Assembly (NCBI GenBank): GCA_022452035.1
Contig: JAKURV010000024.1
Location: forward strand, 1-32,719
Length of the DNA stretch: 32,719 bases
Direction: 5' to 3'
Source of the DNA: Acidimicrobiales bacterium
GTDB taxonomy: Bacteria; Actinomycetota; Acidimicrobiia; Acidimicrobiales; MedAcidi-G1
In this document: positions 1,125-17,684 of the stretch, in pieces
Numbering within the stretch: the first letter of the stretch is position 1
Layout: each line of letters starts with the position of its first letter
Notes under the pieces: generated by a model
Databases searched by the model: none
What the model was told of the DNA's origin: nothing
What the model saw: only the letters and a program-made list of their open reading frames with translations
Position numbers and translations under genes: made by a program

Positions 1125-1901
1125 ATGCCAACTCCCGCGGTCGGGTTAGAAGACGTTTCGCTTGTTTTCGGGGCTGAAGATGACACCTCGGTTCTTGCCT
1201 TGGACACGGTGAGCCTTGAGATTGGAGCAGGGGAGTTCGTCGCAATCGTCGGGCCTAGCGGCTGCGGGAAGACGACAATCCTTAACCTCCTCTCGGGTCT
1301 GATCCCGCCCACTGCGGGCACTGTGAAGCGAAACGGGCAGGAGGTCGACGGACCAAGCCGAGACATCGGATACATGCTGGCCCGCGCAGCCTTAAGCCCA
1401 TGGCGTAGTGCGCGGCGCAACGTCGAACTCGGCCTTGAGATCCATGGGGTGAATCGTCAGGAACGTCGGCGCCGCGCTGAGGAACTTCTCTCCCTGCTCC
1501 ACCTCGACGGCTTTGCCAACGCCTTCCCGAGCCAACTCTCCCAGGGAATGCGACAGCGGGTGGCGATTGCGCGGACACTTGCTATCGAACCCGCCCTGTG
1601 GTTATTAGATGAGCCCTTCGGGGCACTCGATGCCCAAACAAGAATGGCCGTCCAGTCGGAGTTCGTCGGCCTGTGGGAACAGTCGGAAGGATCGACAGTG
1701 ATCCTCGTTACCCATGACCTAGAGGAAGCTGTCCTGCTTGCCGACAGGGTCATCGTGATGACCGCACGCCCGGGTCGGATTAAGAGTGACACAGCGGTCG
1801 ATCTACCAAGGCCCCGAGTCATTGACGAACTTCGATTTGACGACCAGTTCAGAGAACTCGAGCACCAAATCTGGCAGGAATTGCGCGATGAGATCATCTG
1901 A
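1125..1901 (+). CDS. ABC transporter ATP-binding protein, SsuB/TauB family
   Basis: Cytoplasmic ATPase powering the importer, 258 residues, normal length. Walker A is GPSGCGKT (43-50), the signature is LSQGMRQR (138-145), Walker B is LWLLDEPFG (158-166), the D-loop is GALDA, and the switch histidine is in VTHD (195-198). The Q-loop is odd: where most relatives have FQ before the LLPW motif, this one reads MLARAALSPW (84-93), so the usual glutamine is missing. As I recall, some COG1116 members have a similar ARDALLPW form, so this may be a subfamily trait rather than damage. The ATG at 1125 has no clear Shine-Dalgarno. The 3' end overlaps the permease start by 14 bases, which implies translational coupling. 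Confidence 0.93.
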   Translation: MPTPAVGLEDVSLVFGAEDDTSVLALDTVSLEIGAGEFVAIVGPSGCGKTTILNLLSGLIPPTAGTVKRNGQEVDGPSRDIGYMLARAALSPWRSARRNVELGLEIHGVNRQERRRRAEELLSLLHLDGFANAFPSQLSQGMRQRVAIARTLAIEPALWLLDEPFGALDAQTRMAVQSEFVGLWEQSEGSTVILVTHDLEEAVLLADRVIVMTARPGRIKSDTAVDLPRPRVIDELRFDDQFRELEHQIWQELRDEII

Positions 1902-2820
1902 CGAAGAGAGAGAAACTCAGGCCCACAGTGCCGGACGACTACCCATCCGGTTCGACGTCAATAGCCTGGACCTGAAGCGCTCTCCCGCCAGGAAGGTGCT
2001 GGACCGGGTTGACCTTCCAGTCCAGGCTGTGCGCCTGATCCTCCTCGCCCTGATCCTCTGGGTGTGGCAGAGCGAGAGGATCTTCGACGGTGTGTCGCTC
2101 CTCGGATTCGAGATCTTCCCAGAGATCCCCGCTCTCTTTCGAGGTACACCCAGCGGGGTGTGGGACTACATCTCCAAGACCTGGGATGACAGCGTGTTCT
2201 GGGGAGACGTCAAGGTCACCTCTCTTGAGGCACTGCTCGGGTTCGTCTACGGGTCGAGTGCAGGCCTGGTCGTCGGGCTACTGCTTGGAAGGTTCCGACG
2301 ACTAGCTCGCATCTTTGCTCCATTCCTCATCATCACCAACGCCGCACCGAAGGTCGCGTTCGCTCCGATCCTCATCCTCTGGTACGGCGTGGACATCGGA
2401 TCCAAGATTGCTCTAGCCACGATCATCGTCTTCTTCATCGTGCAGATTCCCGTTCAGGCCGCTGTCGGTGGGATCGATCCCGATCTGGATACCGTGGCCT
2501 CCTCGTTGGGCGCCAGCCAACTGCAGAAATTCCGTTTAGTTGTCCTACCAGGGATTCTCGGACCCCTCTTTGGAGCACTTCGTCTCGGGTCCATCTATGC
2601 GATTCTCGCTGCAGTGTTCGGCGAGTTCATCGCTTCGAAGCGAGGACTTGGCCAGCGACTGATCACGGCAAGCAACCAGTTCAACTTTGGGGCTGCGTTC
2701 GCCCTGATCCTCATCCTCGCCTTCTTGGCCCTCCTCTTCAACTTCGTCATGGGAGTCCTTGAACGTCGCTTGTTGAGATGGCAAGACGACGGTGGAAAAG
2801 GAAGCGTCATCTCCCTTTAG
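1888..2820 (+). CDS. ABC transporter permease, SsuC/TauC-like
   Basis: Inner-membrane subunit of the importer, 310 residues. The start at ATG 1888 sits inside the end of the ATPase gene (stop 1899-1901); the frame is open further upstream, but that stretch belongs to the ATPase. A charged N-terminal tail (1-45) precedes a first membrane segment (about 47-61). A binding-protein-dependent permease core follows, with hydrophobic segments near 113-134, 143-165, 171-192, 235-250 and 275-300. The cytoplasmic EAA-type loop is seen as SSLGASQLQKFRLVVLPG (205-222), which should dock on the ATPase. It completes a standard binding protein-ATPase-permease operon; the complex would work as a permease dimer with two ATPases. 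Confidence 0.92.
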   Translation: MRSSDEERETQAHSAGRLPIRFDVNSLDLKRSPARKVLDRVDLPVQAVRLILLALILWVWQSERIFDGVSLLGFEIFPEIPALFRGTPSGVWDYISKTWDDSVFWGDVKVTSLEALLGFVYGSSAGLVVGLLLGRFRRLARIFAPFLIITNAAPKVAFAPILILWYGVDIGSKIALATIIVFFIVQIPVQAAVGGIDPDLDTVASSLGASQLQKFRLVVLPGILGPLFGALRLGSIYAILAAVFGEFIASKRGLGQRLITASNQFNFGAAFALILILAFLALLFNFVMGVLERRLLRWQDDGGKGSVISL

Positions 2821-2830
2821 ACAGACGAGA

Positions 2831-2860
2831 GGCTCGGACCCGATCGGGTCTTAACGAGCC
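2831..2860. terminator. Nested palindrome between convergent genes, likely bidirectional terminator
   Basis: Outer arms GGCTCG (2831-2836) and CGAGCC (2855-2860) enclose a perfect 14-bp palindrome GACCCGATCGGGTC (2837-2850) plus TTAA. It lies between the permease stop (2820, +) and the SDR stop (2899, -), where both transcripts must end. There is no T-tract; function is inferred from position and fold. Confidence 0.6.
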
Positions 2861-2898
2861 CAGACCGGATGGCACGATGAGCCCGGTCGAGAACCGCC

Positions 2899-3726
2899 TC
2901 AGTTTCGATTTCCCGCTTCGGAGTGGAGGCCTGGTTCGGCCACATGAAATTTCGCGACGGTTCCAGCGTTTACCTGACCGCCGTCGATGACCAGCGTGTG
3001 TCCTGTGATGTAGCGGGCTTCGTCGCTTGCGAGGTACACAGCCGCGCCCGCGATGTCGCCGACTTCTCCAGCAATCCCTAGTGGCGATTTCGACTGGATT
3101 ACTGCCGCTGCTTGTTCCAGATTGCTGTGGTCGCCAGTCATAACATCAGCGGTCATAGCGCTGACTGTGTTCCCGGGGGCGATGGCATTGACTCGGATCC
3201 CATGGGCCGCCATCTCGGATGCGACGGTTTGGGTAAGGCCGATCACGCCGCGCTTCGCAGTCGAATAGGCGTGGGGACCAAGGCCGCCGGTGATACCCGC
3301 AATGCTCGACGTGTTGATGATGCTGCCAGACCCCTTGGGAATCATTACGCGAGCAGCGTGTTTCGAACCAAGGAACGCTCCCGTCAGCAGGACGGAGATG
3401 GTTCTCTCCCAGTCCTCGACCGAGGTGTCAGCGATGGACCCGACTGCACCAAGGATGCCAGCATTATTGAACATCACGTCCAGTTGGCCCCACCGAGCGA
3501 CAGCCATGCCAACCGCTGCTGCCACATCGTCTTCCGACGTCACATCGGTCAATGCGAACGCCGCCGAGTCGCCGAGTTCAGCGGCAAGGGATTCGCCGAT
3601 TTCCTGTTGGATGTCCGCGAGAACGACTGACGCACCCTCGTCCACGAACCGGCGCGCTGTTCCGGCGCCGATGCCGCTCGCAGCGCCGGTTATGACGGCA
3701 ACCATGCCGTCCAGGCGACCCGACAT
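2899..3726 (-). CDS. Short-chain dehydrogenase/reductase (classical SDR)
   Basis: NAD(P)-dependent oxidoreductase of 275 residues. The Rossmann motif is TGAASGIG (13-20), NNAG is at 87-90, the catalytic serine is S141 in NTSSIAG, and the YxxxK pair is Y154/K158. An acidic residue after beta-2 (ADIQ, D38) favours NAD over NADP. The C-terminal DGG motif is followed by about 25 extra residues. An excellent ribosome site, AAGGAGA (3731-3737 on the minus strand), precedes the ATG. It lies 59 bases behind the epoxide-hydrolase-like gene on the same strand, so the two are probably cotranscribed. Oxidation of the diol product of that enzyme would be a natural job, but the substrate is inferred only from this pairing. 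Confidence 0.92.
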   Translation of the reverse strand: MSGRLDGMVAVITGAASGIGAGTARRFVDEGASVVLADIQQEIGESLAAELGDSAAFALTDVTSEDDVAAAVGMAVARWGQLDVMFNNAGILGAVGSIADTSVEDWERTISVLLTGAFLGSKHAARVMIPKGSGSIINTSSIAGITGGLGPHAYSTAKRGVIGLTQTVASEMAAHGIRVNAIAPGNTVSAMTADVMTGDHSNLEQAAAVIQSKSPLGIAGEVGDIAGAAVYLASDEARYITGHTLVIDGGQVNAGTVAKFHVAEPGLHSEAGNRN

Positions 3727-4998: not shown

Positions 4999-5445
4999 AT
5001 GGCCGAAATCCCAGAGGTTCAGCGGCTTATCGATGTCCAGGAGATCATCGGCCTGACCATCGCGTACTGCTGGGCATTGGACAGCAGGAAATGGCATGAA
5101 CTCGAGTCAATCTTCGATCCCGACGCGGAAGCGGTCCTGGGTCGGACCAGGGTTAGTGGCCTAGAAGCTATTAGCGAGCATTGTCGGAGGTCCCTTGAGG
5201 TACTAGACGTGAGCCAGCATCTGGTCGGCAACCATCAAGTTTCCTTGGAGTCGGACCTTGCAACGTGTCGGTGTCAGGTGATCGCCCAACACCGGCGTGA
5301 CGGAGCCCCCGGGGGGTCGTCTTGGCTTATAGGCGGGACTTATGAGGATCAACTGCGAAGGACAAAGGCGGGTTGGCGAATATCGCGTCGTGTCCTGAGC
5401 ATCGCCTGGGCTGAGGGGAACCGCGACGTCCTGGGTTCTACCTAA
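4999..5445 (+). CDS. SnoaL-like / NTF2-fold protein
   Basis: 148 residues. The N-terminal VQEIIGLTIAYCWALDSRKWHEL pattern (about 13-35) is typical of SnoaL_4-type proteins: a helix, then aspartate and a tryptophan-containing segment. A conserved-looking SQHLVGNHQV segment and a C-terminal WRISRRVLSIAW strand pair follow. Such proteins form a conical barrel with a hydrophobic pocket; some are small subunits of ring hydroxylases, dehydratases or isomerases. No catalytic residues can be assigned with confidence. It is probably in one operon with the nitroreductase (20-base gap, weak ribosome site). Its stop overlaps the stop of the convergent tetR gene by three bases. It is distinct from the epoxide-hydrolase-like NTF2 protein in this window. 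Confidence 0.75.
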   Translation: MAEIPEVQRLIDVQEIIGLTIAYCWALDSRKWHELESIFDPDAEAVLGRTRVSGLEAISEHCRRSLEVLDVSQHLVGNHQVSLESDLATCRCQVIAQHRRDGAPGGSSWLIGGTYEDQLRRTKAGWRISRRVLSIAWAEGNRDVLGST

Positions 5446-6068
5446 CCAAGAGGCTGTTGAGCATCGAAAGCGATCCCATCTCTGAGGACTGCTTTGATCC
5501 CGTCAATCGCCAATCGCTGACCCTCAAGGTCTTCGATAAACGCGTCGGTGAGTCCCACCGTGAGCGTCTTCATGAGACCATCGATCAGCGGACCTGACTT
5601 CTCGCCTATCTCCCCAGAAGCGATGCCGGCCGCCACCAACTCCGCGACGAACCGGTCGCGTATCGGCCATCCCCTTGCTTGTAGACCATCGCGCAACTCC
5701 GGAACGCGCTGGGAGTCGATTCTGTACGAGGCGAGAAACTTGGCGAGAGTTGGATCATCGCGATTTAGCGCATGTGCTGTCTCAAGCATCATTTCCAACT
5801 TGCCGACCATTGTCTCTTGACCTTCGAGAGCGATAGCAAAGCGCCGGTACACGTACTGATGAGCCTCTTCCTCGACAGTGCAGAAGATGTCGAGTTTCGA
5901 TGAGAAATAGTGGTAGATCGCGCCTGTGGTGATACCCGCTTCATTGGCAACCATCCGGTTAGTGGTGCCCTCATAACCGTGATCGCCAAAGCATCTTCGG
6001 GCCACGTCAATCAGACGACCACGAGTTTCTGCCGAGTCGGTATCCGGTGGCCTACCGAGCTTTGTCAT
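5442..6068 (-). CDS. TetR/AcrR family transcriptional regulator
   Basis: 208-residue one-component repressor. The N-terminal helix-turn-helix runs from about 15 to 60, with GYEGTTNRMVANEAG followed by TGAIYHYFSSKLDIF, the hallmark of the family. A helical ligand-binding domain follows, including an MLETAHALNRDDPTLAKFL segment. The frame is open further upstream to 6290 inside the neighbouring gene, so I use ATG 6068 next to the conserved domain; GTG 6080 is possible and no clear ribosome site is seen. It is divergent from the acyl-CoA dehydrogenase gene over an 88-base gap holding one motif copy. Such regulators in catabolic clusters usually bind acyl-CoA or pathway intermediates, so it is the likely controller of the island. 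Confidence 0.9.
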   Translation of the reverse strand: MTKLGRPPDTDSAETRGRLIDVARRCFGDHGYEGTTNRMVANEAGITTGAIYHYFSSKLDIFCTVEEEAHQYVYRRFAIALEGQETMVGKLEMMLETAHALNRDDPTLAKFLASYRIDSQRVPELRDGLQARGWPIRDRFVAELVAAGIASGEIGEKSGPLIDGLMKTLTVGLTDAFIEDLEGQRLAIDGIKAVLRDGIAFDAQQPLG

Positions 6069-8278: not shown

Positions 8279-9055
8279 GTGACGAAAACCCTGACGGATC
8301 CAGTGCGCCGCTGTAGAGCGCATCTAGTCGCAGGAGGCCGATTTCACGACATCGACTTCGCCCGACGTGAACTGCTTGCCCTTCTAGCCGAGCATGACCA
8401 TGTTCGGACCACGGTCTCCTCTGACTGGGAAGACTCGGAAGAACTCCTATCGAGCGAATTCATCATTAGCTACACCTGCGACGTGAGGCCCTCGAAGAAG
8501 GCTCAACACGAGATTCGGTCCTGGCTTTCTCAAGGGGGTCGGCTTTTGGCCTTACACGGCACAAATGCCGCACTTGAGTTCGGGGGACCACGAGGGGTCG
8601 AAGCCCCGCGTTGCTTCCCAGATTGGGCTGAGACTCTCGGAAGCCAATTCGTCGCCCATCCTCCCATAGCTCCGTATCTCGTCGAGATGTCTCCAGGCAG
8701 TCACTGGTTGACAGCCGGCATCGACCCATTTGAGGTCGACGATGAGTTGTATTTGATGGAATATCCCGATCGGGACTCTCTCGAGGAACTGATCTACACG
8801 CGCTGGCGGGGGGAGGCTCCCTCGTTCGCGGAATCGGACTGGCAGGACGGTCCCGAAGACCACCTCATCCAGTACCTACGCCCGATTGACGAAGGAGCAG
8901 TTCTCTACAACACCCTCGGACATTGTCGCGGCCACTGGGACATGCAGCCGATCAGTGACTGGTACCCCAAAGTCGAGAGATGTTCCTGGGACTTGCCGCA
9001 ATACTACGAGTTGCTCCGCCGAGCGATCAGGTGGGCGATGGAGTGCGCGAAATGA
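8279..9055 (+). CDS. ThuA-like domain protein (class I glutamine-amidotransferase-like fold), copy 1
   Basis: 258 residues; start GTG 8279 with AGAGG about 10 bases upstream. The order of segments is that of the ThuA (trehalose utilisation) family: VAGGRFHDIDF at the N-terminus, a GGRLLALHGTNAAL segment (about 91-104), SHWLTAGIDPFEVDDELYLM (about 142-161) and GAVLYNTLGHCRGHW near 206-220. The histidine-rich LGHCRGHW region corresponds to the family's conserved GH element. ThuA proteins occur with sugar oxidation pathways, where keto-sugars are handled, but their chemistry is poorly settled. The stop overlaps the E1alpha start as ATGA, so it is translated together with the dehydrogenase complex. 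A second ThuA-like gene lies in the convergent operon. Confidence 0.82.
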   Translation: MTKTLTDPVRRCRAHLVAGGRFHDIDFARRELLALLAEHDHVRTTVSSDWEDSEELLSSEFIISYTCDVRPSKKAQHEIRSWLSQGGRLLALHGTNAALEFGGPRGVEAPRCFPDWAETLGSQFVAHPPIAPYLVEMSPGSHWLTAGIDPFEVDDELYLMEYPDRDSLEELIYTRWRGEAPSFAESDWQDGPEDHLIQYLRPIDEGAVLYNTLGHCRGHWDMQPISDWYPKVERCSWDLPQYYELLRRAIRWAMECAK

Positions 9056-10065
9056 CTGGCCCGTTTGAAGAACCAATCGCAGAACCCTCTGCTGAAGTCC
9101 TCAGGGATCTCCATCGAAGAATGGTTCGCATCCGACTCTTTGAGGAGGCAGCTGGTCGACTTTTCGAACAGGCGCGAATACCTGGCTTCATCCACCTCTA
9201 CGTGGGACAGGAGGCGGTCGCCGCCGGAGTCTGCTCCGCGTTGCGTGACGGCGACCAGATCAGTTCAACCCACCGGGGCCATGGCCACCTTGTTGCCAGA
9301 GGCGGCGACCTCAACCAGATGATGGCCGAACTCATGGGTAAATCAACTGGCTACTGCAACGGCAAAGGGGGGTCCATGCACATCTGCGACCTGGACCTAA
9401 ACATGCTCGGGGCAAATGGGATCGTGGGCGGTGGCGTCCCGATCGCGGTTGGAGCCGGGTTCGCGAACCGATACCGCGGAGCGGGTGACGTCTCGGTCGT
9501 CTTCTTCGGAGACGGCTCTACCAACATCGGTGCCTTCCACGAGGCCGCCAACATGGCGGCCGCCCTGAAGCTGCCGGTGGTCTTCATCTGCGAGAACAAC
9601 GAATACGCCGAATACACCAGGAGGGACCGGACAATGGCGATCGATGAGGTCGCCGAACGAGCTGCCGCCTACGGCATGCCGAGCATCGTCGTTGACGGAA
9701 TGGACGCGGTGTCCGTACGGCACGCAGCCCTCGGTGCCTTGCAGTGGGCCAGAGAGGGGAACGGACCATCATTCGTTGAGTGCAAGACCTACCGCTACTA
9801 CAACCACCACGGAGTCCAGACCCTCGGAATGAAGTATCGGCCGGACGAGGAAGTGGAGGAGTGGAAGGCGCTGGATGCCATAGAGCGGCTTGAAGCGAGA
9901 ATCGTTCAGGAGCAGGCCATGACCAAAGGCGACATCGAGGCGGTTCGGGTGTCTCTCGAGGAGGAGGTCCAGGAAGCGGTGACCTTTGGTGAGTCCAGCC
10001 CAGATCCTGATCCGACCGAACTCCTCGACCACGTCTACTCAGAGCCACGATCGGCCGGTCAATGA
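9052..10065 (+). CDS. Thiamine-dependent 2-oxoacid/acetoin dehydrogenase E1 alpha subunit
   Basis: 337 residues. The E1 alpha/beta pair decarboxylates or cleaves a 2-oxo compound and passes the acyl group to lipoyl-E2. The thiamine-pyrophosphate motif runs from GDGSTNIGAF (153-162) to ENN (181-183). HLYVGQEAV (48-56), STHRGHGHL (72-80) and NGKGGSMH (103-110) are family landmarks of the PdhA/AcoA type. ATG 9052 overlaps the ThuA stop, so the in-frame extension upstream is not used. The phosphate-loop segment is odd: TYRYYNHHGVQTLGMKYR (246-263) replaces the common YRxxGHSxxDP form, so the GHS is NHH. This may mark a substrate-specific subfamily. Length and context are closer to acetoin dehydrogenase than to housekeeping pyruvate dehydrogenase. 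Confidence 0.92.
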   Translation: MTGPFEEPIAEPSAEVLRDLHRRMVRIRLFEEAAGRLFEQARIPGFIHLYVGQEAVAAGVCSALRDGDQISSTHRGHGHLVARGGDLNQMMAELMGKSTGYCNGKGGSMHICDLDLNMLGANGIVGGGVPIAVGAGFANRYRGAGDVSVVFFGDGSTNIGAFHEAANMAAALKLPVVFICENNEYAEYTRRDRTMAIDEVAERAAAYGMPSIVVDGMDAVSVRHAALGALQWAREGNGPSFVECKTYRYYNHHGVQTLGMKYRPDEEVEEWKALDAIERLEARIVQEQAMTKGDIEAVRVSLEEEVQEAVTFGESSPDPDPTELLDHVYSEPRSAGQ

Positions 10066-11075
10066 AGGAGTCGAGCGACGCCGGTCGCCAACTGACCTAC
10101 CTCGCGGCGTTCAACGAGGGAATGCACCAACTGATGGCCGAGGACCACGACATCTTCGTCGCTGGTGAAGATGTCGGGGTCCAGGGCGGCGTATTCGGCA
10201 GCTTCGCCGGCCTGCTTGAAGAGTTCGGAGAGAGCCGAATGGTCGACACCCCGATCAGCGAGCAAGCGATCGTGGGGCTCGGCATCGGGGCAGCCGTTTG
10301 CGGTCTGCGGCCCATAGTCGACCTCATGTTCATGGACTTCGTGCTGGTTTCGATGGATCAGATCGCCAATCAAGCGGCAAAACTTAAGTACATGTTTGGA
10401 GGCAAGGCCTCCCTTCCGTTGACGATCACCACGAACGCAGGAGCAGGTCTCTCAGCGGGAGCCCAACACAGCCAAAGCCTCGAGGCCGTGCTGTGCCACA
10501 TACCTGGGCTCAAGGTCGTCGCGCCGTCCAACCCACGCGACCTGAAGGGACTACTGATCGCGTGCGTCCGTGAGGACAACCCGACCGTGCTCATCAAGCA
10601 CAAGAAGATGTTCGGAGTCTCCGGACCTGTTCCCCAAGAGTTGTATGAGGTCCCAATCGGGGTTGCGGCCACCCTGCGGGAGGGGTCCGACCTGACTGTC
10701 GTGTCCTACAGCAGGATGGTGACCGAGGCTCTGGAGGCTGCCGAATGCTTGGCGACCGAGGGCATCGAGTGTGAGGTGATTGACCTCAGAACAGTCCAAC
10801 CGCTGGATATCGAAACCGTGATCGCGTCGGTCCGCCGCACCAATCGGCTGGTAGTCGTCCACGAGGCCGTTCGCTTTGGTGGGCTAGGTGGCGAGATTGC
10901 TGCGCAGGTCCAGGAGCACGCGTTCGATTACCTCGATGCGCCAGTCGGACGCGTCGCAGCACCTTTTGCTCCAGTTCCCTTTAGCCCAGCCCTCGAATCT
11001 CAGTATGTTCCCGATGCGGCCCGAATCGCCGAGGGAATCCGCGGTTGCCTCGGCCTACGGCCATTCATCGGGTAG
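10062..11075 (+). CDS. Thiamine-dependent 2-oxoacid/acetoin dehydrogenase E1 beta subunit
   Basis: 337 residues, overlapping E1alpha by ATGA. It shows the beta-subunit landmarks GEDVG (35-39), DTPISEQAIVGLGIGAA (62-78) with the thiamine-activating glutamate E67, TNAGAGLSAGAQHSQSLEA (about 124-142) with active-site histidine H136, and the C-terminal transketolase-type half ending in VVHEAVRFGGLGGEIAA. It forms the alpha2beta2 E1 with the preceding product. All expected residues appear intact, so the complex should be active if E3 is supplied from elsewhere. Only six bases separate its stop from the E2 start, as in acoABC and bkd operons. Confidence 0.93.
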   Translation: MKESSDAGRQLTYLAAFNEGMHQLMAEDHDIFVAGEDVGVQGGVFGSFAGLLEEFGESRMVDTPISEQAIVGLGIGAAVCGLRPIVDLMFMDFVLVSMDQIANQAAKLKYMFGGKASLPLTITTNAGAGLSAGAQHSQSLEAVLCHIPGLKVVAPSNPRDLKGLLIACVREDNPTVLIKHKKMFGVSGPVPQELYEVPIGVAATLREGSDLTVVSYSRMVTEALEAAECLATEGIECEVIDLRTVQPLDIETVIASVRRTNRLVVVHEAVRFGGLGGEIAAQVQEHAFDYLDAPVGRVAAPFAPVPFSPALESQYVPDAARIAEGIRGCLGLRPFIG

Positions 11076-11081
11076 GACGCC

Positions 11082-12482
11082 ATGGCCACCGAGTTCCTGA
11101 TGCCCAAGCTTGGCTTGACCATGGAGGCCGGCACGATCATCGACTGGCTCGTCCCGGACGGTGCCGAGGTTTCGGAGAACACGCCGGTGCTCTTGATCGA
11201 AACCGACAAGGTGGAGACCGAGGTCGAAGCGGGTAGCGCAGGAATTCTTCGGCGGTCCGGGGAGGTGGGCGAGACCTACTCCTGTGGAACGCGACTGGGA
11301 TGGATCCTCGAAGTCGGAGAGAGCCTCACAGCACCAACCGGTGAGGAAGAGCGCCGTGTCGATCGGACCGGCGAGCAGTCCGGGACCCAGTCCCGACAAG
11401 GTGAAGACACAGTTGAGCTTCGCGAAAGTGAAGGCGACGCTTCCCAACGGCTGATGACGTCGCCCAATGCCCGGCGCGTCGCCGCGAATCTGGGGATAGA
11501 CCTGGCCGAGATCACAGGCTCTGGCCCCGGCGGCCGGATTGTCTCTAGCGACGTCGAGTCGGCTGCGCTCTCAGGGGCTTCGATGTTGGGGGGTGCGCCT
11601 GATCGCCACGCATCGATCGAGGGGCGACCCACCTCGGCCAGCTTCGCCGCCCGGCAACTCGCGGACCAGTTGGGCGTCCAACTATCGGCTATCTCGAGTG
11701 CTTCCGTTGGACAGCGAATCACTCGGGAGGACGTGCTTCATCACACCCGGGGCCTTTTGGCGGGGCCAGACGGTCAGAAGACTCCTGCTCCGGCCCTCCT
11801 GCAGACCCCAACGTCCGTCATACCAATGACCGGGATGCGACGCGTCATAGCTGAGCGCATGCATTCGTCGTTGCGTGAGATGGCACAACTCACGCTGATG
11901 ATGGACGTCCACATCGACGGACTCGTGACACATCGGGAGCAGTTCTCCGACACGGGTCTGACACCCAGTTACACGGATTACGTGATCGCCGCCACTTCAC
12001 GGGCCCTTGTGAAACACCCGATTGTGAATAGCCAGCTGACCGACGAAGAACTTGCCCTGCTCCCGGAGATCAACGTCGGCCTTGCAGTGGCGTTGGAGGA
12101 GGGGGTGGTGGTTCCCGTAGTACGGGGCGCCGACCGCTTGTCGATCACTGACCTGGCGACGGAGACTTCGCGACTGTCCTCAGCCGCTCGAGGCGGAAAA
12201 CTTCGACTATCGGATGTAGAAGGTGGAACATTCTCCGTCACCGCCCTCGGGATGTATGGAGTCGACGGCTTTACGCCGGTCATCAACCCTCCGAATACGG
12301 CGGTTCTGGGCATAGGAAGGATTCGAGAGCAGGCCACTTGGAACGAAGAAGGGCGAATCGAAAGGGCTCGGGTTCTGACACTGAGTCTGACCTGGGACCA
12401 TCGGGCCTTTGACGGAGTTCCGGCCGCCGAGTTCGTTGCAACCATTCGCGACCGTCTCGAGAGCGCTCAGTTCGACGGTTGA
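11082..12482 (+). CDS. Dihydrolipoamide acyltransferase E2 with two peripheral-subunit-binding domains
   Basis: 466 residues. Domains in order are a lipoyl domain (1-80, lipoylated K43 in ETDKVETEVEA), a charged linker, a peripheral-subunit-binding domain (about 125-160, TSPNARRVAANLGID...GRIVSSDV), a second one (about 183-220, TSASFAARQLADQLGVQ...QRITREDV), and the catalytic acyltransferase core (246-466) with H440 and D444 in DHRAFDG. It carries the acyl group from E1 to CoA and forms the core of the complex. Two binding domains in a row are unusual; most E2 proteins have one. The last 16 bases overlap the end of the convergent ThuA gene. No E3 gene follows. Confidence 0.93.
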   Translation: MATEFLMPKLGLTMEAGTIIDWLVPDGAEVSENTPVLLIETDKVETEVEAGSAGILRRSGEVGETYSCGTRLGWILEVGESLTAPTGEEERRVDRTGEQSGTQSRQGEDTVELRESEGDASQRLMTSPNARRVAANLGIDLAEITGSGPGGRIVSSDVESAALSGASMLGGAPDRHASIEGRPTSASFAARQLADQLGVQLSAISSASVGQRITREDVLHHTRGLLAGPDGQKTPAPALLQTPTSVIPMTGMRRVIAERMHSSLREMAQLTLMMDVHIDGLVTHREQFSDTGLTPSYTDYVIAATSRALVKHPIVNSQLTDEELALLPEINVGLAVALEEGVVVPVVRGADRLSITDLATETSRLSSAARGGKLRLSDVEGGTFSVTALGMYGVDGFTPVINPPNTAVLGIGRIREQATWNEEGRIERARVLTLSLTWDHRAFDGVPAAEFVATIRDRLESAQFDG

Positions 12483-13294
12483 ACCGGTGGGTGCTCAGAG
12501 GCCCAGTCGTGGGCCCCGCTCGAGGACACCCAGGAGATGGCGTTTCCAACGGACTTGCGATAGTTAGCGTCTCCGTAGACATCCGGTCCGTCACCGAACT
12601 GCAGATAGACAACGGGCGAGTTGCCAGCCCGCTTGGCCCAGGCCACCAGGTTGCTGCCATCGGGATGAGACCAACCTTTCTTGCTGTCTCTCTGTCCCCG
12701 GATGGCGAGATTCGCGGAATAGAAGTTGTCGGCGGTGAAGGTGTGGTGGCTCTGCATCAGAGGTGTGACGTCACCTTCAAAGACTGTGAACAGGTAGACC
12801 TCGTCCCGGATCTCGAAAGTGGGCTCTAGGCCAGCGCAGACAGGATGGTCGATCTCGACCACCTCGACCGTGTGCCGTACCCCATGCCGGTAGCCAGAGT
12901 CCGGCAGCGATAGGCCATGTTCGCCTTTCGATTGGTAGTTGAAATAGCCGCCGACGATCTGGGCGTACCTGGGCCAGGCTGGCCATCCGGCGATGGCATG
13001 GTGGAGGAAGACCATTCCCTGTCCACGCTCCAGCAGGGCGATGAAGTTTTTGACGTAGTCATTCGGAGGCTGATGGAGCCTGGCTGGAGGTTCATGCCCT
13101 GTGAACTCGATTCCGGGCATGTCGTAGAGGACGAATACATCGATCTCGGACGCGGCGTCAACCGAGAAGAGCGCTTGCGCGGCAGGGTGTTCGATCTGGA
13201 ACCAATCGACCTCGAGGGACTCGAAGACCGCCCGGAATCCCTCTTCGTCGAATCGGTGGCCACCGGTGATGACGGCTACTCGCGGACGCTTCAC
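12467..13294 (-). CDS. ThuA-like domain protein, copy 2
   Basis: 275 residues. The N-terminal RVAVITGGHRFDEEGF, the GQGMVFLHHAIAGWPAWPRYAQIVGG region (about 92-117) and HTVEVVEIDHPVCAGL, then IRDEVYLF, match the ThuA family layout; SHHTFTADNFYSAN and a late PVVYLQFGDGPDVYGDANYRK segment complete it. Compared with copy 1 it has an extra LHQPPNDYVKNFIALL stretch and only moderate similarity, so the two are probably functionally distinct paralogues rather than a recent duplication. It is the last gene of the leftward operon, 10 bases after the Rieske oxygenase gene, and overlaps the E2 gene tail to tail. Substrate unknown; a sugar- or polyol-like intermediate is an inference from the family. Confidence 0.85.
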   Translation of the reverse strand: MKRPRVAVITGGHRFDEEGFRAVFESLEVDWFQIEHPAAQALFSVDAASEIDVFVLYDMPGIEFTGHEPPARLHQPPNDYVKNFIALLERGQGMVFLHHAIAGWPAWPRYAQIVGGYFNYQSKGEHGLSLPDSGYRHGVRHTVEVVEIDHPVCAGLEPTFEIRDEVYLFTVFEGDVTPLMQSHHTFTADNFYSANLAIRGQRDSKKGWSHPDGSNLVAWAKRAGNSPVVYLQFGDGPDVYGDANYRKSVGNAISWVSSSGAHDWASEHPPVQPSN

Positions 13295-13304
13295 CTCCTC
13301 CCAC

Positions 13305-14525
13305 TCATTCCGGAAAGGTTGTCTCCATAGTTGAGAGAAGGTCCCGGTAACCGTTCATGTCGCTGGCTTCCACAAGCGCGTCCACCCACTGATGGAACCT
13401 TTGCCCACCTACCTCATTTCGGCCAAAGAGCACCGACCTTGCGGGGTTGCCGCGCAGGGACTGTTGGATTCCCTCGCATGTCCGGTAGTCCTCGTCACGG
13501 ACCACGCCGAGGAGAAACTTCATTTGCTCCTGGATCAGAGACAGTCGGTGATCGTCGACCGGTTCCTTGGTCAAGAACGACTGGGTGGTTACAGATTCGA
13601 ATGGCCCACTACCTGGAAATAGTTGGGAAACCATGTACAGGGGTCCGTCGCAATCGAAACAGGCGATGGAGACATGGGGGAAGATCGTCCAAAGGCCACC
13701 CAGCAACTGATCCGTTTCCCATTCCTCTTCCGGCACACCGTCAAGTTGCAAGAACCGATGGTCCAGCGGACTCACCCGCTGATGTGGTCCCCAGGCGTCA
13801 TAAATCCCCCGGTTGCACCAGTCGGATCCGAACGTCTCCCGGTGGAGGTAGGGGATGTGGTACAGGTCCAGATAGCCGTCGTAGACGATCTTCCACCCTG
13901 GCCCCGGAATGGACTGTTGGCCAACCAGATGCGCATCGGCCAGTCCGAGGTTTTCGAGCATGTCGTCATACCCGCAGAGGAACTCATCAAAGTGCGGATC
14001 GACACCCGGCACGACGCTGCCGAACACAAGCCCAGCACGCTCGATGCAAGGGATCTCGATGAGTCCGTCGCAGTCAGCTACGAGATCGCCGAACAGCGAC
14101 CGATCGGTAATCCCAACCAACTTTCCCTCAGCGGAGTAGGTCCACGCGTGGTAAGGGCAGGTGAACCTCTTCTTCGTTCCGTGCCCGTCATCGACCAGCC
14201 GCGACCCTCGATGCCTACAGGAGTTGATAAAGGAGCGGACTATCCCGTCGGCACCTCGCGTGATGAGGATTGGTGTCCCTGCGACGGTCAGCGCCCGGTA
14301 GGTGTTTAGATCGCCGAGTTCGGGTCCAATGCCCAGTACGAGCGGCACACGGCGGAAGATCCTTTCAATCTCCAACTCCCATCGCGCCGGATCGGTGTAC
14401 TTATGAGCAGGAACCTCGTAGACCTGATCGCCGAGAGGCATCGTCCCCAATCGCGCGTGGTTGAGCGTTCGTCGAGCCTGATCTACGAGAAGCTCTCGGC
14501 TCCCAGCCGAGGTGGGGCTACCCAT
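13305..14525 (-). CDS. Rieske non-heme iron oxygenase, alpha subunit (A)
   Basis: 406 residues. The Rieske [2Fe-2S] ligands are CxH (C103, H105 in CRHRGSRL) and CxxH (C123, H126 in CPYHAWTY). The mononuclear iron site is in WKIVYDGYLDLYHIPYLHRE, giving D220 as bridging acid and H223 and H228 as ligands; the third carboxylate lies further on. Such enzymes insert oxygen into aromatic rings, alicyclic C-H bonds or N-methyl groups, using electrons from a reductase. No ferredoxin or reductase lies in this window. GAGGTG about 10 bases before the ATG is a fair ribosome site. It follows a 68-residue gene by 20 bases and precedes a ThuA gene by 10, so all are cotranscribed. Substrate class not identifiable. 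Confidence 0.93.
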   Translation of the reverse strand: MGSPTSAGSRELLVDQARRTLNHARLGTMPLGDQVYEVPAHKYTDPARWELEIERIFRRVPLVLGIGPELGDLNTYRALTVAGTPILITRGADGIVRSFINSCRHRGSRLVDDGHGTKKRFTCPYHAWTYSAEGKLVGITDRSLFGDLVADCDGLIEIPCIERAGLVFGSVVPGVDPHFDEFLCGYDDMLENLGLADAHLVGQQSIPGPGWKIVYDGYLDLYHIPYLHRETFGSDWCNRGIYDAWGPHQRVSPLDHRFLQLDGVPEEEWETDQLLGGLWTIFPHVSIACFDCDGPLYMVSQLFPGSGPFESVTTQSFLTKEPVDDHRLSLIQEQMKFLLGVVRDEDYRTCEGIQQSLRGNPARSVLFGRNEVGGQRFHQWVDALVEASDMNGYRDLLSTMETTFPE

Positions 14526-14545
14526 TCTTGGCTACACCTCAGGGT

Positions 14546-14752
14546 TCAATCGGCGTCGTGCATTCGGTGGTTAGGCGCTATTGGGCCAGCGATCCAATTG
14601 CACATCTGAGGGTCGCATTCTCGGAGTTCTCCGGAGACCCACCGCCCCTCACCAGTGAATACCCCCGAGCGGGCGCCGTCGGTCACGAGAACGTTTCCAT
14701 GGCCGTCCTGCTCATAAAGGGCATGGCTGAAGGGGTGCCTGATGCCGAGCAT
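14546..14752 (-). CDS. Small conserved-looking protein (68 aa) between two Rieske genes
   Basis: ATG 14752 overlaps the stop of the upstream Rieske gene as TGATG, a coupling typical of real genes, and the stop leaves 20 bases before the next Rieske gene. The protein reads like a compact domain: HPFSHALYEQDGHGNVLV, then GVFTGEGRWVSGELRECDP and W near the end, with regularly spaced glycine, phenylalanine and tryptophan. I recall similar short proteins beside Rieske oxygenases in other bacteria but cannot confirm a family name. It has no metal-binding cysteine cluster, so it is not a ferredoxin; its two cysteines (positions 46 and 51) are isolated. A role as partner or stabiliser of the oxygenase is inference from its location only. 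Confidence 0.72.
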   Translation of the reverse strand: MLGIRHPFSHALYEQDGHGNVLVTDGARSGVFTGEGRWVSGELRECDPQMCNWIAGPIAPNHRMHDAD

Positions 14753-16098
14753 CAGTTACCAACCCAATCAGTAAGCCGTTGGTGCAGCCACCGAATCTTG
14801 GATTCCTGGTAGTTCGAGAGCGTGATCCCGGGCTTCCTCGCCGTTTCCAGACCCCTCTGCACCTTCGCCATATTGAAGAGGTCCTGGTCGAAGACCTTTC
14901 CCAACATGCCAAGCTCCGTGGCGTTGGTGAAGGGCTCGTCTTCCTCCAGCCAGTGGATGGGCGCCGGCTCGGGCTTCTCGTCGCCGTGAGGCGCAAGGAA
15001 AATGCACTCCATGATCGAACTGCGATGGTCGTCGCCGTTGGGGCGGAACCGATAGAGGATTCGGTTGAACGCCCCCCACGGATGGAGGTTGGGGAAAACC
15101 GTGTAGTCGATGCTGTCCATCATCTCGGCGTCCGACATCTGGTTCACCCGATCGCCGGCGGCCGGCCGCCAACGATCTCGACTCGCTTCGGCTGCCATCT
15201 CGCGAGCGGTTCTCCCGCTAGGCATTGCGGTTGGCAGTTCCTGGTCGACCCGGACGTCCATCAGCGTCCGCATAATCTGCTCCTCGGAAGGTTCCCACTT
15301 CAGATGGGGACTGGGTGTCCCTCCAGGAGTAATCACTCGAGCAAAGTTCTCCCATATGTCGACCTGGCTGTTGCAGTCTCCTAGGTAGGGGAGAATCTGG
15401 GGATGCGTCCCAACGACATGGAAGGCTTCGCTGAATGCCTCCTGGGTGATCTTCCAGTTCGCGCGGATGACCTTTGCGACATGGGCCTGCTTGTAACGGT
15501 GTCCGAAGTCCCAGCACTCGAAATGCTGGACGATCTCACCGAGGAAGTCGTGCAGGGGTTCAGCATCAGGATCCGGGTTGATGAACACCATTCCGGCCCA
15601 GATCCCGACGGCGCACTGCGGGAGCACAAAAGACTCAGGTTCAACATGGGGGAAGTCCCAATCCGCGGGCACCTTCTTTAGATCCCCGTTCAGTTCCCAG
15701 GTAAAGCCGTGGAAGGGGCACCGGATTTCACTGCACCGTCCGTCGTATTCCTTAAGCAGGCGACCGCGGTGGAGACATGCATTTGGATATGCCCGGATCT
15801 CATCGGGCGCTACCCGGACTACCAGGTAGGAGGCTCTGACGATCTCGTAGATGTAGTAGTCGCCCACCTCTGGGATCTCGTCTTCACGACAGGCGTATTG
15901 CCAGACACGACTCCAGAGCCTCGACACTTCGCGTTGGTGCCACTCCGCAGAGATGTAGCGATCGATTGGGATATCAGCGTCGCCCAGGTATTGGGGGGAC
16001 TCAAGACGCAAAACGGCAGGGACCTCATGCGTGTCGCTGTCCAGAAGTCCCTGATAAGAGATGCCAGGGGACCGAGGAGTCTCGCTAGGTCCATCCAT
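14752..16098 (-). CDS. Rieske non-heme iron oxygenase, alpha subunit (B)
   Basis: 448 residues. Rieske ligands are C108 and H110 in CLHRGRLL and C127 and H130 in CPFHGFTWEL. The catalytic iron site is NWKITQEAFSEAFHVVGTHP, with H227 and H232 as ligands and E224 at the bridging position, where many relatives have aspartate. A late DQDLFNMAKVQRGLE segment probably supplies the third ligand. It is longer than oxygenase A, with an insertion rich in acidic and arginine residues around 265-310, and the two share little sequence outside the motifs, so they likely act on different steps. The ATG at 16098 has no clear ribosome site, but a GGTTA/TAACC inverted repeat lies just upstream. Confidence 0.93.
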   Translation of the reverse strand: MDGPSETPRSPGISYQGLLDSDTHEVPAVLRLESPQYLGDADIPIDRYISAEWHQREVSRLWSRVWQYACREDEIPEVGDYYIYEIVRASYLVVRVAPDEIRAYPNACLHRGRLLKEYDGRCSEIRCPFHGFTWELNGDLKKVPADWDFPHVEPESFVLPQCAVGIWAGMVFINPDPDAEPLHDFLGEIVQHFECWDFGHRYKQAHVAKVIRANWKITQEAFSEAFHVVGTHPQILPYLGDCNSQVDIWENFARVITPGGTPSPHLKWEPSEEQIMRTLMDVRVDQELPTAMPSGRTAREMAAEASRDRWRPAAGDRVNQMSDAEMMDSIDYTVFPNLHPWGAFNRILYRFRPNGDDHRSSIMECIFLAPHGDEKPEPAPIHWLEEDEPFTNATELGMLGKVFDQDLFNMAKVQRGLETARKPGITLSNYQESKIRWLHQRLTDWVGN

Positions 16099-16170: not shown

Positions 16171-16530
16171 TCAGTCCGATTGACCGGCCGTGAAGAAGTC
16201 AGCTCGGGGTAGGTGGTTGTCGTCGTAGACGGGCTCCGCGAGATCAATCCTGTACTTAAGAGTTTCGGATCCGACAAGTCCGGATGACCGCAGGAGATCT
16301 CGCATGGCAAGGTAGTTCGGGTGTTTGAAGTGCGCAGAGAGGCAATCCTCATCAGTCCAGAGTTCGTAGACTTGAATCCGCGTCGCGACGCAAGGATCTG
16401 GAGCGAAGGAGTAGGCGCGGCACCCCTCTTCCCCTTCTCTCGTGGCCAACTGGAGGACACTGCTCTGAGCCGTTGCCTCGTCCCGGGCGTCCGAGTTCTG
16501 GAACTCAAGGGTGCCAGCAATGATGATCAT
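16171..16530 (-). CDS. Antibiotic biosynthesis monooxygenase (ABM) / YgiN-like domain protein
   Basis: 119 residues with one ferredoxin-like ABM domain: MIIIAGTLEFQNSDARDEA at the start, REGEEGCRAYSFAPDP (about 31-46), TRIQVYELWTDEDCLSAHFKHP (about 50-71), then the final LKYRIDLAEPVYDD strand. These are the usual family landmarks. Members are cofactor-free dimers that oxidise quinol-like substrates, isomerise lactones or simply bind small ligands. An additional C-terminal tail of about 15 residues is present. AGAGG six bases before ATG supports the start. It heads the leftward oxygenase operon and is divergent from the zinc alcohol dehydrogenase gene. Its place upstream of two ring-type oxygenases fits handling of a hydroxylated or quinone-like product, but this is inferred. 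Confidence 0.85.
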   Translation of the reverse strand: MIIIAGTLEFQNSDARDEATAQSSVLQLATREGEEGCRAYSFAPDPCVATRIQVYELWTDEDCLSAHFKHPNYLAMRDLLRSSGLVGSETLKYRIDLAEPVYDDNHLPRADFFTAGQSD

Positions 16531-16603: not shown

Positions 16604-16626
16604 AACGGACCCGTTCTGAATCGGGT
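16604..16626. promoter_or_regulatory. Overlapping inverted repeats in divergent ABM / alcohol dehydrogenase control region
   Basis: AACGG-AC-CCGTT (16604-16615) overlaps ACCCG-N8-CGGGT (16609-16626), 30 bases before the alcohol dehydrogenase start. The 125-base divergent gap needs promoters in both directions. These dyads do not fit ACCGRWYRRTTA, so a second regulator may bind here. Confidence 0.35.
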
Positions 16627-16655
16627 TGGTTCGGACGACAGATCGGAAAACTGTG

Positions 16656-17684
16656 ATGCAGGCAGGATTGATCACAGGGCTAAACCAACTCGAATTTCGC
16701 GAGTTCCCTTACCCGACCCCCCGGCCAGGCGGGGTCGTCGTCGAGATCAAGTACTGCGGTATCTGCGGGACAGACGTCCATGCATACCAGTCAGGTCGGC
16801 CCTACCCCCCTGCGGTTTGTGGACATGAATGGGTAGGTGTTGTATCAGCCGTCTCGCAAGACACTGGCCGGCTTAGTGAGGGAGATCGAGTTATTGTCGC
16901 TGTCCCTTCGGCTTGCGGCACTTGCGATCATTGTGGGCATGGTCGTCAAGACCAGTGTCGGTTGGTACGGGCGGTTGCTACTGGTCGCGACACCCAAGCC
17001 CCCGACCACGGTGGGTTTGCGCCTGCGATCGCAGTTTCGGCAAACCGGGTTATGCCTGCCGAAGCGGCGCTTACCGACGTGGAGGCTGCGCAGGTTGAAC
17101 CGACGACAATTTCGGTTCACGCTGTTCGACGAAGCGGCGTGGGGCCTGGAGACAAAATTGTTGTTCAGGGCGCTGGTCCTATTGGCTTGTCTGTGCTCCA
17201 GGTAGCACGGGCATACGGAGTGGACGAGGTGCTGGTTGTTGAGCCCGATGAAGATCGACGAACACTGGCCCTAGAGTTGGGAGCGGACTTGGCGATCATC
17301 CCGGAGGCAGCAGCCGAGATTGTGCTTGAGCGCACTGGGAGTACTGGCGCCGACGCTGTTATCGAATGTGCCGGCTTTCCTGAGACCGTCGAGACCGCGG
17401 TCGGGTTCTGCCGATCTGGGGGAACCGTGTGTCTGGTTGGCATAGCCGACGGCCCAGTTTCGGTTACTCCGCGAGAATGGATTGCCCGCGAGGTGACAGT
17501 GGTCTCAGCCCTGGCCTACCTCCACGAAGAGTTCCAAATAGCGATGGAGTTAATTGCAGACGGCCACGTTCAAGTTCAGCAGGTTCACTCTTCGACCGTT
17601 GGTCTCGCCGACCTTCCTGCTGTGATCGAGAGACTGGCCGGAGGCAGTGGCGAGACCAAAATCTTGGTCGACCCGACTCTGTGA
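16656..17684 (+). CDS. Zinc-dependent medium-chain alcohol dehydrogenase (threonine/butanediol dehydrogenase type)
   Basis: 342 residues. Catalytic zinc ligands are C37 (in CGICGTD, followed by D40) and H57/E58 in GHEW. Structural zinc ligands are C87, C90, C93 and C101. The nucleotide-binding motif GAGPIGLSVLQVARA and VVEPDEDRR, with an acidic end of the second strand, indicate NAD. The protein most resembles sorbitol, threonine and 2,3-butanediol dehydrogenases, which oxidise secondary alcohols to ketones. That would provide an acyloin-type substrate for the acetoin-dehydrogenase-like complex in the same island; this link is inference. ATG 16656 or the adjacent GTG 16653 may be used; only a weak GGAAAA lies upstream. 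It is the last gene of the lower-GC part. Confidence 0.92.
   Translation: MQAGLITGLNQLEFREFPYPTPRPGGVVVEIKYCGICGTDVHAYQSGRPYPPAVCGHEWVGVVSAVSQDTGRLSEGDRVIVAVPSACGTCDHCGHGRQDQCRLVRAVATGRDTQAPDHGGFAPAIAVSANRVMPAEAALTDVEAAQVEPTTISVHAVRRSGVGPGDKIVVQGAGPIGLSVLQVARAYGVDEVLVVEPDEDRRTLALELGADLAIIPEAAAEIVLERTGSTGADAVIECAGFPETVETAVGFCRSGGTVCLVGIADGPVSVTPREWIAREVTVVSALAYLHEEFQIAMELIADGHVQVQQVHSSTVGLADLPAVIERLAGGSGETKILVDPTL

Follow-up and report, generated by a model that had tools for sequence, protein, structure and literature searches.

What does a gene of only 68 codons do between two genes for Rieske oxygenase α subunits? In the window, i.e. the whole 32,719-nucleotide stretch of DNA from an Acidimicrobiales bacterium (probably marine) analyzed here, such a gene lies on the minus strand at 14546-14752, with its coding part, which begins with ATG, at 14549-14752 and its stop codon at 14546-14548. 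It is preceded by the gene for a 448-amino acid (aa) α subunit (alpha1; 14752-16098, minus strand) and followed by that for a 406-aa α subunit (alpha2; 13305-14525, minus strand), which is 25.5% identical to alpha1. The original prediction described a TGATG overlap with the upstream gene and a 20-base gap to the next one, and both are borne out by the bases and coordinates. The letters catca at 14750-14754 become TGATG when the minus strand is read, with the TGA stop of alpha1 and the ATG of the small gene overlapping by one base, and the gap to alpha2 spans 20 bases (14526-14545).

Both large proteins match PF00355 (Rieske domain) and PF00848 (Ring_hydroxyl_A), and for alpha1 both scores (52.2 and 62.3 bits, respectively) are over the Pfam cut-offs. 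In alpha1, C108, H110, C127, H130, H227, and H232 are invariant (34 sequences) and form CxH...CxxH and H-x4-H motifs; we take the first four residues to be the ligands of the cluster and the last two to be those of the iron. The carnitine monooxygenase CntA is the nearest solved fold for alpha1 and the glycine-betaine monooxygenase GbcA its best NCBIfam match. An identity as GbcA was rejected, the score being 90.2 bits versus an equivalog cut-off of 670. We know of no accessory domain of the kind described below in CntA or GbcA α subunits.

The small gene is under purifying selection

The 68-aa protein, originally predicted to be real but unnamed, indeed matches no family of Pfam, NCBIfam, or PHROGs at E ≤ 1, and a sequence comparison with the PDB was likewise empty at E ≤ 10. 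Its Gly/Phe/Trp-patterned sequence is present as described, and the pattern is conserved in an alignment of 49 sequences, in which F32, G41, D47, and W53 are invariant and H6, P7, and Y13 are, like W53, conserved. There are two Cys, only one of which (C51) is near-invariant in these sequences; it is Thr in Rhodococcus and Leu in L063.

The ratio of synonymous to non-synonymous changes had been set beforehand as a check, and dN/dS is well under one against relatives. Using the Nei-Gojobori method, dN is 0.27-0.34 and dS at least 1.35 (one value saturated) in comparisons with five diverged relatives; alpha1 is slightly more constrained, with a dN of 0.19-0.25. A near-identical copy from the same genus (L074), differing by one synonymous and one non-synonymous change, is uninformative on selection. 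The 68-aa gene is under purifying selection. A chance open reading frame (ORF) is ruled out by the homologues found across genomes, with 219 confirmed relatives, and by a dN far below dS.

The domain is patchily distributed

When the genome of the window and 60 relatives were searched, homologues at E ≤ 1e-21 were found in five genomes, i.e. its own and four others. Those in the four others are 56-99% identical to the 68-aa protein, and one genome has two copies. Presence is patchy, with one of 16 same-genus relatives carrying the domain, and five same-genus genomes that have no match to the domain have none to alpha1 either. Profile searches found the domain in at least 56 genomes of an order-level sample of 397, in 13 of 296 genomes of a class sample (one of them outside the order of the window), and in five of 396 genomes of a phylum sample, all five from this order.

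A scan of a named genome collection matched 231 stretches, of which 219 were confirmed and the best 80 kept. These matches are mostly titled Acidimicrobiales or Actinomycetota; a small number are Gammaproteobacteria or metagenome-assembled genomes under other labels. Five records of Rhodococcus plasmids carry the domain, at 43-51% identity. Two of them are annotated and list it as a hypothetical protein right after a gene named 'aromatic ring-hydroxylating dioxygenase subunit alpha'. The domain is absent from six plasmid loci (five proteobacterial and one cyanobacterial, of 12 records), and the one stretch matched among viral contigs was not confirmed.

The small gene accompanies alpha1 rather than alpha2

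A search for homologues with the W/G pattern near Rieske genes, proposed with the original prediction, found a Rieske α gene adjoining in 80 of 80 loci (the best 80 of 219). In each of these the domain starts where an alpha1-like gene of the same strand ends. The 80 loci were ranked by a stand-alone query and under-represent other arrangements, the frequency of which is not measurable from them; they hold 81 domain matches, L146 having a second one upstream of another α gene. In an order-wide listing that includes the window, in which counts of domain places and alpha1 matches are lower bounds, at least 91 of 94 places are in or beside a Rieske α gene. At least 83 lie within 300 nucleotides of an α match, a lower bound obtained with part of the α matches. 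Eight further places comprise six forms inserted in an α subunit (two of them cut or broken) and two beside a contig-cut or more distant α gene; incomplete among these eight are L252, a broken α gene, and L249, where the domain is cut by the contig end. The remaining three are G111:C5, at a contig end beside a run of N, G062:C39:36236, a real exception in that a Rieske gene is lacking there, and G274 (E 7e-4), which is probably a chance match.

In 88 cases where the small gene is downstream, its nearest start codon lies at −1 relative to the α stop codon in 39 and at −4 in another 20; in 78 it falls between −4 and +3. Such overlap suggests that translation of alpha1 and the small protein may be coupled. 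The original proposal that the small protein could be a partner of the oxygenases is supported, with a refinement. alpha1 is a conserved neighbor with homologues that contain the domain (see below), whereas matches to alpha2 occur in just 29 of the 87 loci and, with a median identity of 31%, look like those of generic paralogues, because of which we regard alpha1 and not alpha2 as the conserved partner.

Three unusual loci were seen along the way. In L017 (G018:C2), tandem α genes (182-1546 and 1751-3106) that are 99.6% identical (449/451) flank a single small gene (1549-1758), an arrangement that stems either from recent duplication or from the assembly. In L253 (G062:C39), a 105-aa ORF (5234-5548) fuses the beginning of an enoyl-CoA hydratase with the greater part of the domain (model positions 15-58 of 61). 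It immediately precedes a molybdopterin oxidoreductase gene, has no Rieske gene adjoining, and could be a genuine recombinant, a relic, or an assembly error. In L249 (G078:C97), a more distant Rieske α gene (784-2151) is immediately preceded by part of the domain, which the contig end cuts, and the domain may accordingly partner a wider set of α subunits.

The other neighbors vary between loci. Downstream of alpha2, the window has a ThuA-like gene (12467-13294, minus strand; homologues in 30 of 87 loci), and upstream of alpha1 are genes for an antibiotic biosynthesis monooxygenase-like (ABM) protein (16171-16530, minus strand; 12/87) and, on the plus strand, a zinc-type alcohol dehydrogenase (16626-17684; 14/87). 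Also on the plus strand are genes for 2-oxoacid dehydrogenase E1 α (8980-10065), E1 β (10062-11075), and lipoyl E2 (11082-12482), with homologues in 11, nine, and two of the 87 loci, respectively, in flanks of limited length; E1 genes are also found in both annotated Rhodococcus plasmid clusters. Acyl-CoA dehydrogenase, SDR, ThuA, and 2-oxoacid dehydrogenase E1 neighbors suggest a catabolic cluster that differs from locus to locus. The cluster in the window has a second gene of the ThuA family (8279-9055, plus strand), and ThuA genes also adjoin Rieske α genes on Rhodococcus, Croceicoccus, and Novosphingobium plasmids.

Sister α subunits carry the domain internally

In 10 of 182 distinct α homologues, the domain lies inside the same ORF as the α subunit. 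These ORFs encode 529-619 aa and their domains score 45.6-62.9 bits with a profile built from stand-alone rows only. One was checked in Pfam and is a Rieske α subunit. The insert starts 286-290 residues past the start of the α match and is followed by 172-190 residues; where measured (seven or eight of the ten), identity to alpha1 is 46-50%. Aligning seven of these proteins with alpha1 places the domain at one site of the catalytic half. In its stead, alpha1 has a short stretch there (residues 266-299, encoded at 15202-15303 on the minus strand); H227, H232, P264, and R299 are invariant in the alignments. This site is 34-67 residues past H232, the second iron-ligand histidine of alpha1. By sequence comparison, the 68-aa protein is thus homologous to an internal insert of sister α subunits.

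Across the 182 homologues, the domain gene is downstream in 88, upstream in 27, inserted in 10, and absent in 57, some of the last being contig-cut; the upstream class includes one miscounted contig-end fragment (L055), the absent class includes a contig-cut insert (L065), and the upstream and downstream rows of L017 share one small gene. No second copy was found in the 0.6-1.6 kb flanks of the ten inserted forms and no insert in the α subunits adjoining a separate gene, i.e. no α subunit examined has both.

Related α subunits without the domain form a separate group

A tree of 130 α subunits, built with every second downstream row and without rows below 420 bits or 380 aa, has a side (SH-aLRT 89) with 76 members, comprising 43 with a downstream, 22 with an upstream, and 10 with an inserted domain, and one at a contig end. 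The other side holds 45 without the domain, four with an upstream domain, and five at contig ends. In a rooted tree of 89 rows (mixture model), in which the downstream, upstream, and domain-less rows were thinned further, 50 α subunits, all domain-bearing, form a clade (SH-aLRT 99), nine more upstream cases fall outside it, and the inserted forms are a single clade (SH-aLRT 96); its root is weak. With the domain absent from the 45 more distant α subunits, it is not a general requirement of Rieske oxygenases. A wider profile found nothing above noise beside the domain-less α genes, the strong matches there belonging to a second, domain-bearing α gene.

The two groups also differ in sequence. 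R113 of alpha1, which is beside the Rieske motif, is found in 96% of 117 domain-bearing α subunits but in none of the 45 without the domain, where it is Thr. Likewise, K434 is found in 92% of the former and none of the latter, which have Arg; L201-L204, with an upstream domain outside the main clade, are in neither group. At the Rieske cluster motif, domain-bearing proteins thus read CLHRGR (up to residue 113) and all 45 domain-less ones CLHRGT. Four domain-less α genes (L218, L219, L225, and L240) are followed by a gene of ∼140 aa, and prefixes in L219, L225, and L240 match SnoaL-like families. These proteins could have a role akin to that of a β subunit.

A confident model without a named fold

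The stand-alone model of the 68-aa protein is confident (pLDDT 87.6, pTM 0.73) and predicts a four-strand sheet (residues 12-15, 20-25, 28-33, and 38-41) plus a helix (48-55). Searched against the PDB with Foldseek, the model has 119 matches at E ≤ 10, none of which reaches E ≤ 0.001. The weak matches include a Polo box, and the best by VIA-align has a Z score of 3.7 with an rmsd of 4.4 over 61 aligned residues. On these models, no solved structure appears clearly related and we claim no named fold. A read-through model of alpha1 plus the small protein has a pLDDT of 80.3 and a pTM of 0.82, and its α part is nearest to CntA (Z 23.1, rmsd 3.3, 311 aligned). Analysis of residue coupling between α subunit and small protein (117 pairs, effective number 60) gave noise.

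Proposed role of the small protein

We consider it likely that the 68-aa protein serves the alpha1-type Rieske oxygenase as a non-catalytic subunit, i.e. a detached form of the internal domain of its sister enzymes that is bound in trans. Gene order and homology to the insert point to a probable physical association with alpha1. The small protein would be translated together with alpha1 through stop-start coupling and would dock on it at the position that the insert has in the fused enzymes, beside the loops covering the entrance to the active site. Once docked, it would shape the entrance for the substrate and stabilize the oxygenase, this role as lid or stabilizer being the least certain step.

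The placement by the entrance, which we put forward tentatively, comes from counting residues; sequence alignment of alpha1 to solved structures ends at about the histidines. According to a report on biphenyl dioxygenases (PMC1847435), the entrance loop of BPDO-OB1 consists of residues 220-240, after His-212; Leu-260 is displaced toward the entrance, and in the RHA1 enzyme residues 271-276 shift in the direction of the active site. By count, this loop, which is the best described, precedes the span of the insert site, and Leu-260, 48 residues past His-212, falls inside it. Because of this count, the domain may lie by the entrance, shaping it or holding it.

Other roles would leave the protein outside the mature enzyme or give it a different task. 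The frequent gene overlap and small size would suit a co-translational, chaperone-like helper in the assembly or folding of alpha1, but one clade has the domain permanently built in, which suggests that it remains part of the enzyme and makes such a helper unlikely. Regulation is a common task of small domains inserted in enzymes, and H6, P7, Y13, and W53 could line a pocket for substrate or product. However, no known ligand-binding fold was recognized and there is no sign of regulation, and we find it quite improbable that the protein is an allosteric regulator of the oxygenase instead of a builder of its entrance.

As originally noted, no ferredoxin is visible, none having been recognized among the window genes scanned, and the electrons need a source. 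That the small protein takes the place of the missing ferredoxin in electron transfer is nonetheless very doubtful, with one near-invariant Cys of two, no ferredoxin match in Pfam, NCBIfam, or the PDB, and no Foldseek match at E ≤ 0.001. A ferredoxin proper was rejected, as the single near-invariant Cys in 49 sequences does not make an Fe-S ligand motif and there is no family match. Unrelated small proteins often join gene clusters, yet the domain is inserted in ten α subunits and elsewhere lies close to the α gene, on one side or the other, which makes it hardly credible that this is a co-operonic enzyme or orphan protein without a physical link to the α subunit.

Comparison with known systems

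Ring-hydroxylating dioxygenase β subunits have an NTF2-like fold. The small protein, if a subunit, would resemble them in being a non-catalytic, probably structural partner encoded beside the α subunit. A β subunit as such was rejected (68 aa versus ∼170, no Pfam match at E ≤ 1, and a sheet-plus-helix model); for comparison, residues 5-174 of the BPDO-OB1 β subunit are modelled (PMC1847435). The nearest precedent is the caffeine N7-demethylase NdmCDE of Pseudomonas putida CBB5, another Rieske oxygenase with a domain detached onto another polypeptide and a non-catalytic protein. In that enzyme (PMC4408171), the Rieske domain is split off on NdmD, and the non-catalytic NdmE, which is glutathione-S-transferase-like, is needed for solubility and activity. 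Here, in contrast, alpha1 keeps its Rieske domain, and it is a ∼60-aa domain of the catalytic half that would be detached.

Among the open-access literature matches listed, no paper was recognizable from its title or the start of its abstract as describing such a domain; we do not claim its absence from print. By these matches, it would be an undescribed detachable domain of Rieske oxygenases. More speculatively, a single domain of ∼60 residues could have moved among three genomic states (upstream, downstream, and nested in the catalytic domain) around the same enzyme while serving as an interchangeable entrance lid, and would be a new class of Rieske subunit selecting substrates that are probably bulky, a reading that we regard as possible.

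If one branch of Rieske α subunits needs the 68-aa partner, an α subunit expressed alone could fail, and the partner is annotated only as a hypothetical protein. This would matter for environmental actinobacteria, which have many Rieske α subunits of no known function, the 2.2-Mb genome of the window having eight matches. The three arrangements also amount to a natural experiment on how a nested domain can turn into a separate subunit, or the reverse.
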